Below, in pieces: positions 24,285 through 32,013 of a stretch of DNA of 35,964 bases. The stretch spans positions 1 through 35,964 of the forward strand of contig CANRMW010000004.1 in the NCBI GenBank assembly GCA_947631835.1. The letters are read 5' to 3'. The position numbers and the translations under genes were made by a program. A model generated the notes under the pieces. The model was not told the DNA's origin. It was given only the letters and a program-made list of their open reading frames with translations, and did not search any database. Every line of letters begins with the position of its first letter. Position 1 is the first letter of the stretch. Source of the stretch: an uncultured Clostridia bacterium (GTDB lineage Bacteria; Bacillota; Clostridia; Oscillospirales; Acutalibacteraceae).

Positions 24285-24289
24285 CCTCC

Positions 24290-25200
24290 TTTTCTTAAAA
24301 GAAAAGCGGCCAAAGGCCGATTCGTCGCGGTGGTCGTTCGCTCCGCGAACTTCGCCTGTGCACCTGGGAAACTTTCCCCCGCGCTGTGATCCGGCTCCGT
24401 TTGGTCAGCCCGCTCCCGTCCTCCGCGAACCAAAATAGGGCAAACGTCAAAAGTTTCGCCCGCCTTTCCAAAGGCCGCAGGGGTCGAGGGGGCAAAGCCC
24501 CTTGGGCGCGGCTCGCAAGCCGCGAAATCCTTTTCGTTCATAAGCGCAGGAAGGTCGGCGAAATCAGCCCGGTGGGCTGTTTCGCCGCAGGGAACCCTCG
24601 CCGGGGGTTCCCTTTCGGGCGTTTCCGCCCCGGCCAAAGGCCGTTTTGTCGCGTTGGGCGTTCGCTCCGCGAACTTCGCCAGCATTTTCGGGAAGCGTTG
24701 CCCCGCGTCATAAACCGGACTGGTTCGGTAAATTCGCTCCCGTCCTCCGCGAACCAGCGCAGCGCGAACGGCAAAAGTTTCGCCCGCCTTTTCAAAGGCG
24801 GTAGGGCTCCAAGGGGCAAAGCCCCTTGGGCGCGGCTCGCAAGCCGCGAAACCCTTATCCTCCATAAGCGCAGGAGGGTCGGCGAAATCAGCCCGGTGGG
24901 CTGTTTCGCCGTAGGGAACCCTCGCCGGGGGTTCCCTTTCGAGCGTCTCCGCCCCGGCCAAAGGCCGATTCGTCGCGACGGTCGTTCGCTCCGCGAACTT
25001 TGCCTGTGCATCTGGGAAACTTTCCCCCGCGCCAGAGGCAAAACCTCTTTCGTCGCGTTGGTCGCGTGTGCGTGAACGCACGACGCTTCGCCGGAATTTC
25101 CAGTGTGCTTTCCCCCGCGCTATGACCCGACTCCGTTTGGTCAGCCCGCCTCCGCTCTCTTCGAGCCAGAGTAGGGCAAACGAAACGGGCTCCGCCCCTC
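24290..25200. repeat. Array of hairpin-dense intergenic repeats with a 324-bp period
   Basis: gttcgctccgcgaac at 24336, 24660 and 24984 (exactly 324 bp apart). Two full units, a third partial unit and a diverged partial copy to about 25180. Units contain many short perfect palindromes (GGCCAAAGGCC, GGGGCAAAGCCCC, GCGGCTCGCAAGCCGC, GGCGAAATCAGCCCGGTGGGCTGTTTCGCC, GGGAACCCTCGCCGGGGGTTCCC). Confidence 0.9.
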
Positions 25201-25242
25201 GGCAGCATGAAAGCAAAATTTCAATTTATCATGCTAAAGGTG

Positions 25243-25271
25243 TTGACAGCGCATGCATTTTGCCTTATAAT
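25243..25271 (+). promoter_or_regulatory. Consensus sigmaA promoter for potABCD
   Basis: TTGACA-N17-TATAAT, perfect consensus hexamers. Confidence 0.85.
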
Positions 25272-27207: not shown

Positions 27208-28023
27208 ATGAAAAACAAAACCGTTCTCCCGAATGTTTACCTCGCGGTCCTCATGATCCTGATGTATGTGCCGATCGTGCTGGTCATCATTTTCTCGTTC
27301 AACGAAAACAAGCTCTCCGTGCGCTGGGACGGCTTTTCATGGCGCTGGTATGAGGCGCTGTTCGCGGACCGCGCCATGTTCGAATCGCTCGTCAACTCGC
27401 TGATCCTCGGCGGCTCCGCGTCGCTCGCGGCGGCCGTCATCGGGACGCTCGGGGCCGTGGGCAGCTCGAAGGTGAAGCTCCCCGGCAAAGACGCGGTCGA
27501 GTATCTTTCGACGCTCCCCATGATGATCCCCGAGATCATCCTCGGCATGGTGTTCATGGTGTTCTTCTCGCTGATCGGCCTGCCGTTCGGCATGATGACG
27601 CTCATCATCGCCCACACGGCGTTCTGCATCCCCTACGTCTTCATGCTCGTGCGGGCGCGGCTCGTCGGCATGGATAAGAGCCTCGAGGAGGCCGCGCTCG
27701 ACCTCGGCGCGTCGAAGATCTACGCGTTCTTCACGGTCGTCCTGCCGCTGATCGCCCCGGCGATTCTCTCCGGGATGCTGCTCTCCTTCGCGATGAGCTT
27801 CGACGACGTGATCATCAGCATGTTCGTCACGGGCGTGGATTCCAACACGCTGCCGCTGCGCGTCTACTCCCAGATCAAGACCGGCGTGACGCCGGAGATC
27901 AACGCGCTGTGCACGCTGATCCTCCTCGTCACCGTGCTCATCCTCGCGCTCGCTGCGGTCCTCTCGCGGATCGGGCGCGGCAAAAAAGAACCGGAGCAGG
28001 CCGCCGAGATCGAAGCGCGCTGA
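27208..28023 (+). CDS. potC: Spermidine/putrescine ABC transporter permease
   Basis: MKNKTVLPNVYLAVLMILMYVPIVLVIIFSFNENKLSVRWDGFSWRWYEALFAD...ALDLGASKIYAFFTVVLPLIAPAILSGMLLSFAMSFDDVIISMFVTG: PotC-like. Confidence 0.93.
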   Translation: MKNKTVLPNVYLAVLMILMYVPIVLVIIFSFNENKLSVRWDGFSWRWYEALFADRAMFESLVNSLILGGSASLAAAVIGTLGAVGSSKVKLPGKDAVEYLSTLPMMIPEIILGMVFMVFFSLIGLPFGMMTLIIAHTAFCIPYVFMLVRARLVGMDKSLEEAALDLGASKIYAFFTVVLPLIAPAILSGMLLSFAMSFDDVIISMFVTGVDSNTLPLRVYSQIKTGVTPEINALCTLILLVTVLILALAAVLSRIGRGKKEPEQAAEIEAR

Positions 28024-28393
28024 ACAGACAGAAAGGCCGCTCTCCCCAAGAGCACGGAAATTAGTCCCCTTCGCGCCGGGCGCGGAGCTTCCCCGGTCCG
28101 CGCTGCAAAACAGAATCGCCGCGGGAAACCGCTGTCGAGATAAATCCCCATTTTTCATTCCCGTGCGCATCCTCGCGCTCGCCGTGGTCCTCTCGCGGAT
28201 CGGGCGCGGCAAAAAAGAGCCGGAGCAGACCGCCGCCGAGATCGAAAACCGCTGACCGGATAGAAAGCCCGCTCTCCCCAAGAGCACGGAAATTAGTCCC
28301 CTTCGCGCCGGGCGCGGGGCTTCCCCCGTCCGCGCTGCAAAACAGAATCGCCGCGGGAAACCGCTGTCGAGATAAATCCCCATTTTTCATCCC
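27932..28393. repeat. Tandem duplication (~230 bp) of the potC 3' end plus intergenic sequence
   Basis: ccgtgc[t/g]catcctcgcgctcgc...cttcgcgccgggcgcgg...gataaatccccatttttcat occurs at about 27932-28160 and again at about 28161-28391. Confidence 0.92.
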
Positions 28394-28412
28394 CGAAAGG
28401 AAGGAATAAGAA

Positions 28413-31530: not shown

Positions 31531-31532
31531 CC

Positions 31533-31690
31533 CCTACTTTTCTTGAAAGAAAAGTAGGCCGGAGGCCGTTTCGTCGCGACGGTCGTTCGCTCCGCGAACT
31601 TCGCCGGTGCGGCTGAAAAGCGTCTCCCCGCGCCATAAGCTGGGCTTGGTTCGGTAAACTCGCCCTTGCTTTCCGCGAGCCAGTATGGAA
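31533..31690. repeat. Dispersed copy of the hairpin-dense repeat
   Basis: cttttcttgaaagaaaag...ggccggaggccgtttcgtcgcgacggtcgttcgctccgcgaacttcgcc...ggttcggtaaactcgcccttgctttccgcgagcca matches the start of the 24.3-kb array. Confidence 0.85.
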
Positions 31691-31929
31691 AGACACCATG
31701 CTTTTTTCGGCTCAACCGTTTCATGATCTTTGCCCCGCGGGACTCCCCAAAAACGGGTTGAAGGCTGCCGGTAGAGCGGATTTGACGACAAAGTTCACTC
31801 TGCTGGCGGTTAAGACACGTCGAAGTCTTTTGGGCACCACTGTGGGAAAGAAGGCCCCCTGCTTTCTCCTCGCTAAGAAGCAGATGGACGATTGGCAACG
31901 CCAAGCGTCTCACTTTCTCTTCAGAAAAG

Positions 31930-32013
31930 CGCGACCTTAAAGGGGTCGAGGGGGCGGAGCCCCATCGGTACGGAGCAAAAAGTTTTTGGCGGGTTTTTGA
32001 AAAAACCGCAAGG
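31930..32013. repeat. Second module of the same dispersed repeat, abutting the GH42 RBS
   Basis: aaaggggtcgagggggcggagccccatcggtacgg resembles aggggtcgagggggcaaagccccttgggcgcgg in the array; followed by hairpin gcgggtttttgaaaaaaccgc. Confidence 0.65.

Follow-up and report, generated by a model that had tools for sequence, protein, structure and literature searches.

What is the hairpin-dense array that separates a PP-loop ATPase gene from a PotABCD-type operon in an uncultured Clostridia bacterium, and how did it come to lie there? The window, that is, the whole stretch of DNA that was analyzed, is 35,964 nucleotides long. Within it, the array extends from approximately 24286 to 25205, with the stop codon of the PP-loop gene (PF01171, TtcA-like) on its left and the potA promoter, a perfect sigma-A type match (TTGACA-17-TATAAT at 25243-25271), on its right. 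This is the location given in a preliminary description, between a TtcA-like gene and the potABCD promoter. That description also held that no gene explains the array, and we agree. No Pfam family matches the longest ORF that crosses the array on the + strand, and arrays elsewhere in the genome repeat every 160 bp, which is not a multiple of 3 and breaks the frame. A coding array is therefore rejected.

The landmark GTTCGCTCCGCGAAC recurs at 24336, 24660, and 24984, as first described, and the spacing of 324 bp is exact. The claim of an exact period stands for spacing and fails for identity: likeness between the 300-nt blocks is 86%, and only the first 79 nt of the third unit are present, after which an A-type unit of another kind (25034-25178) follows, its linkers the same but its stems different. 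Tandem Repeats Finder describes 24307-25034 as 2.2 copies of a 324-bp period with 84% matches. The array is also as rich in hairpins as had been noted, with 12 nonoverlapping perfect stems of at least 6 bp (loops of 3-10) relative to an expectation of 2.75 ± 1.6 from 200 dinucleotide shuffles (maximum of 7). All hairpins listed previously are present, some in one unit only; TGGTTCG...CGAACCA and CGCCTTTTCAAAGGCG, for example, are perfect in unit 2 only. Relative to shuffles, the fold z-score is −8.3 on the + strand and −7.5 on the − strand; the two strands have the same potential for structure.

The array is a mosaic of two modules, A and B, in the order left-end hairpin, A1, B1, A2, B2, A3 (truncated), and A4. 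The features of the window are as follows.

24289-24306, + strand: left-end hairpin CTTTTCTT-AAAAGAAAAG, the start of the array, immediately downstream of the stop codon of the PP-loop gene.
24307-24447, + strand: module A1, with slot hairpin CGGCCAAAGGCCG, GATTCGTCGCG.GGTC, hairpin GTTCGCTCCGCGAAC, and linker to GGGCAAACG.
24449-24613, + strand: module B1, a hairpin-chain core (covariance-model match 24449-24553, 81.8 bits) containing AAAAGTTT, P1 CGCCTTTCCAAAGGC, P2 GGGGCAAAGCCCC, P3 CGCGGCTCGCAAGCCGCG, linker AAGCGCAGGAAGG, P4, and P5 AGGGAACCC..GGGTTCCCT.
24631-24772, + strand: module A2, whose first 78 nt are 79% like those of A1.
24773-24937, + strand: module B2, a second hairpin-chain core (covariance-model match 24773-24877, 90.7 bits, E 8e-20).
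24955-25033, + strand: module A3, truncated, 95% like A1.
25034-25202, + strand: module A4, with slot hairpins AGAGGCAAAACCTCT and CGTGTGCGTGAACGCACG and the array end hairpin GGGCTCCGCCC; its linkers are the same as in other A modules and its stems are different.
31532-31690, + strand: a second dispersed element of the family, made up of a left-end hairpin plus a single A unit and located immediately downstream of a stop codon (BLAST 76%, E 7e-18, matched span 31557-31683).

Module A1 is closer to A3 (95%) than to its neighbor A2 (79%), which shows that more than simple tandem duplication was involved. Behind the A unit of the second element, at 31690-31950, there is more repeat-like sequence, ...GACACGTCGAAGTCTTT...TTCAGAAAAGC.CGACCTT, which also terminates the array of the nearest relative (L109 of G001) and one end of L002; it is possibly a right-end module of arrays. 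Separately, at 27932-28395, a 232-bp tandem duplication (92%) spans the last codons of the second Pot permease gene and the spacer that leads to the gene for the solute-binding protein; as a result, there is a second, truncated gene end that has a stop codon of its own.

The array is one of many. When the region was compared by BLAST with the 2.05-Mb draft genome from which it comes, a fragmented metagenome assembly that is near-complete, approximately 110 places on dozens of contigs matched. Module A is 140-160 bp in length and single or tandem, with five copies at 160-bp spacing on one contig (C5), and is found in the window species and its nearest relative. Module B is a hairpin chain of approximately 165 bp, identified by a covariance model at eight places in the host genome, two of them in the window. 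In module A, stems occupy fixed slots in which letters vary yet remain self-complementary. Stems in the first slot include CGGCC, CAGCC, CAGGC, CGACC, and GAGGC, and this slot holds a hairpin in 35 of 50 A motifs versus 8% of control 16-mers. The left-end hairpin CTTTTCTTGAAAGAAAAG has approximately 37 copies in the genome, versus 0 for a reversed control pattern, and most of the listed copies have the same context, a slot hairpin and then a GTCGCG motif. The base of its stem is locus-specific yet pairs with itself, with a summed extension of 104 bp across 30 copies (shuffled mean of 47, maximum of 68 in 2000).

The family is multi-copy and intergenic, and at the orthologous site it is absent from two congeners and different in the closest relative. 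In the congeners (G005 and G002; PotA 80-82% identical), approximately 100 bp with the promoter separates the PP-loop gene from potA. In the nearest relative (G001; PotA 94% identical), the stop codon and the promoter-proximal sequence GGCAGCATGA.AGCAAAATTTCAATTTATCATGCTAAAGGTGTTGACA are the same as in the window and bound a different array of approximately 590 bp that has two A-type units and no B. The empty sites, together with the differing array, imply an insertion in the lineage of the window and a content that turns over fast.

Module B reaches much farther than module A. Using a covariance model built on the first three hairpins and the linker, we found the B core in at least 41 of 298 genomes and at least 29 of 148 genera of the order, figures that are lower bounds with 13 candidates scored per genome. 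Across a phylum-wide sample of 300 genomes, the window's own genome alone matched. A sample of relatives placed B in further genera of the family, and a first look at G030 gave hundreds of candidates. The matches listed from a pattern scan over named genomes are all metagenome assemblies of Clostridia and related Bacillota, including Oscillospiraceae, Ruminococcaceae, Candidatus Fimenecus, Candidatus Howiella, and Christensenellaceae. The core of Candidatus Howiella intestinavium (L169) is identical to one from G023, a genome assigned to the same family as that of the window. The repeat family is widespread in uncultured gut bacteria and apparently undescribed; a limited search of open-access full texts, which is weak evidence of absence, returned no account of such a family in Clostridia.

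Some B cores (L151, L146, L172, L194, and L183) have an additional hairpin or a replaced stem within the chain; L194, for example, has GCAAGAGGACGGCGTAAGCCGTCGTCTTGC between P3 and the linker. It is as if insertion or exchange of hairpin units had taken place. Copies also lie within approximately 150 bases of contig ends at L123, L136, L139, L142, L163, and L178 (RGIG3116), and likewise at approximately 150 bases or less on contigs C14, C18, C29, C34, and C35 of G627. The repeats probably break these metagenome assemblies.

The stems of module B covary. Among 28 B cores that differ by at least 22%, standard pairs make up 94.4% of pair cells, in comparison to 78.7 ± 0.7 when shuffled and 40–58% when partners are slid by 1-3 columns. 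Changes occurred on both sides in 27 of 41 pairs, and the covariation score is 0.435 versus 0.149. The linkers AAAGTTT and GCGCAGGAGG are conserved and strand-specific. An AGGAGG in the core linker was considered as a Shine-Dalgarno-like translation signal and dropped, as no conserved start codon was seen downstream by eye.

Such strong compensatory change in stems, along with conserved, strand-specific linkers, is what a structured-RNA family would show. In that case, a transcribed core would act as RNA through its hairpin chain, in termination, in mRNA protection, or in trans, and dispersal would be secondary. A structured ncRNA had been proposed for this locus and the covarying stems are in its favor, but fold potential is equal on both strands, and the orientation of elements relative to neighboring genes is mixed in four genomes (rough ORF-based gene calls). 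Moreover, the window array has no promoter of its own, and a scan of 23.8-25.7 kb with Rfam 15 matched no family, with the only hit, to a miRNA family, far below the cut-off. The invariance of GCGCAGGAG and P5 in the core set is in part a product of the search pattern, and copies in the congener G006 differ there. We consider the RNA reading unlikely.

Covariation has another possible source. When imperfect palindromes undergo template switching, stems in DNA can become perfect with no selection involved, and for this reason covariation is not proof of a working RNA. Carried further, this argument would make the whole family one of mutational palindromes, in which template switching perfects stems in dispensable intergenic DNA and old tandem duplications are spread by recombination. 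The locus-specific yet self-complementary stem bases of the left-end hairpin are as correction would give, and the many different stems found in the same slot, as well as a likeness of A1 to A3 that exceeds that of A1 to A2, fit equally. Terminal repeats, locus-specific duplications, and empty orthologous sites are nonetheless left unexplained, and we regard this reading as quite improbable.

Terminal repeats and target duplications were delimited in elements of relatives rather than in the window copies. In other genera, the B core lies between terminal inverted repeats flanked by target duplications. The B-type element of G030 is approximately 200-220 bp with terminal inverted repeats CCACCTGTGCGGTTG...CAACCGCACAGGTGG, and its end motif has 64 sites versus 0 for the reversed control. 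The 15 copies with both ends have AT-rich target duplications of 8-9 bp (z 4.3, 0/1000 permutations). At L058 of the same genome, an element adjoins a truncated copy of the same element (gtatagctatgacaatgaaaag...), which suggests nested insertion. A third type of end was seen at L155, L159, L181, and L190, where the flanks of the core carry TCACGGATTTTTGTGGGATT and a near inverted repeat (..AATCCCACAATTTTCCGTGA).

A different pair of ends, CAGTCTGTCGATAAACTG / TACTTTTTCTACACGCTG (also given as CAGTCTGTCGATAAACTG / CAGCGTGTAGAAAAAGTA), delimits elements in rabbit-gut Clostridia assemblies and G300. Here, the element immediately follows a terminator-like hairpin, on its 3' side, and a full copy of that hairpin recurs beyond the element with its T-run retained, as for AGCCATCCGACCGCAGAAAAGCAGTCGGATGGCT on both sides in L150 and AAGGCTGTATAATTTTAAAATACAGCCTT in L198. 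Of 28 two-ended elements, 22 have direct repeats of at least 14 bp near the ends, most of these repeats being whole stem-loops (20-37 bp); the rate in cross-pairs is 0.7%. In a set of 90 B copies picked independent of end type, direct repeats of at least 16 bp flank 27 (30%), versus none in controls; not all of these repeats are hairpins. The length of the duplication follows the hairpin. Duplication of a whole stem-loop was observed for a single type of terminal repeat; isolated cases of a similar kind occur elsewhere. Long direct repeats are also a feature of IS1202-type elements. In open-access full texts, a limited search that is weak evidence, we found no report of a target duplication that comprises a whole terminator.

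Two roles from the preliminary description can be judged from these results. A nonautonomous mobile repeat is borne out by the more than 100 places in the genome, the empty orthologous sites, and the terminal inverted repeats and target duplications in relatives. A cruciform or protein-binding array is supported in one sense only, in that elements in relatives appear to use hairpins as their sites of insertion.

The search for an enzyme was negative. A transposase with ends matching those of the elements was not found in the genomes and loci searched. In 885 kb of loci, there was no long element with the same ends; the search returned nothing beyond two elements that contain internal inserts and a single chance pair around ordinary genes. 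The DDE_Tnp_1_6 domain (PF13751, IS1182-type), the one domain used as a test for the IS1182 family, is absent from seven of eight host genomes tested; G030 has a fragment. The Y1 transposase (PF01797) has no match in the near-complete draft genome of the host, whereas the same profile matches in five control genomes. This absence bears on a REP/BIME-like system mobilized by a Y1 (RAYT) transposase, a reading that would fit high copy number and extragenic, palindromic mosaics. In addition, units are 105-320 bp and, in relatives, have terminal repeats, in contrast to REPs of 20-40 bp, and target duplications are present, making such a system very unlikely. A one-off local tandem duplication has next to no likelihood, as the 2.2 copies of 324 bp at the window locus may owe their period to one but approximately 110 places in the genome and at least 29 genera refute it as a full account, and BLASTN against the own genome and the covariance model found both further copies and covariation, the two things whose absence had been taken in advance as its sign.

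The array is, in our judgment, probably one locus of a nonautonomous mobile repeat family that is MITE-like, has a BOX-like modularity, is built from hairpin modules (a lineage-specific A and a structured core, B, that is widely shared), and is served by a transposase in trans. A host transposase would act on the ends of elements. It may recognize an extruded hairpin and join the two strands at its two feet, which would copy the hairpin. Every new copy of an element, being itself a chain of hairpins, would offer fresh targets. The small hairpin CGGCCAAAGGCCG recurs at 24307, 24631, and 24955, and such repeats would allow nested insertion and recombination to lengthen, shorten, and rearrange arrays, which would account for the 324-bp period of the window copy. 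Insertion beside existing terminators would do little harm to the host.

A model for such a reaction comes from IS1272, whose transposase is proposed to attack the feet of an extruded stem-loop, which is replaced (PMC5678879). In a hypothetical "pathway b", the attack would fall on the 5' feet and the stem-loop would be duplicated in full (PMC5678879). The duplications in relatives have the form of pathway b.

The missing matching transposase counts against the mobile-repeat reading, as do the delimitation of terminal repeats and target duplications in relatives only and the conservation of the middle while ends differ by lineage. MITEs usually retain their ends and lose their middle. Since the opposite is seen here, the core must be kept for some reason. 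A more specific proposal is offered tentatively: an order-wide nonautonomous family with a covarying core and exchanged ends, which inserts at extruded terminator-type hairpins with duplication of the whole hairpin, makes its own targets, and forms arrays.

An unexplained intergenic array has become one member of a widespread repeat family. What is unusual about the family is its conserved interior with lineage-specific ends and its hairpin-sized duplication. The former raises the question of why a nonautonomous element keeps its middle. The latter is a natural test of structure-dependent transposition, for which stem-loop replacement only has been reported (PMC5678879).

Compared with known systems, REP/BIME elements with RAYT are alike in being extragenic palindromic mosaics of high copy number and differ in size, terminal repeats, target duplication, and the lack here of a Y1 transposase in the host genome. 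The target of IS1272 and the IS1182 family is an inverted repeat of 21-85 bp that is recognized by structure rather than sequence, and IS1272 replaces the stem-loop and leaves no target-site duplication (PMC5678879). In contrast, the stem-loop is duplicated here, on both sides of most elements with delimited ends. An IS1272-type element that replaces stem-loops was rejected because the stem-loop is kept and PF13751 is absent from seven of eight hosts.

Prokaryotic MITEs are closer. Elements of relatives share with them a size of approximately 200-300 bp, terminal inverted repeats, target-site duplications, and lack of coding capacity. The host genome has approximately 110 places, arrays of less than 1 kb, and no Pfam match, with an empty site in G002 and G005, and terminal inverted repeats with target-site duplication are found in the elements of relatives. 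Unlike in MITEs, the interior is kept by compensatory change, terminal inverted repeats vary by lineage, and no parent insertion sequence was found.

BOX elements of Streptococcus pneumoniae are noncoding, intergenic, present in more than 100 copies, and modular with a tandem internal module (PMC3049150). They have terminal inverted repeats and target-site duplications, vary in length between strains, are predicted to form stem-loops, and are regarded as parasitic (PMC3049150). In architecture, which is the basis of comparison rather than sequence, the family described here is similar in being modular, with tandem A or AB units, terminal inverted repeats with target-site duplications, and variable length. 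It differs in that one core is found in at least 29 genera with ends that differ, and in that the target duplicated in some lineages is a whole hairpin.
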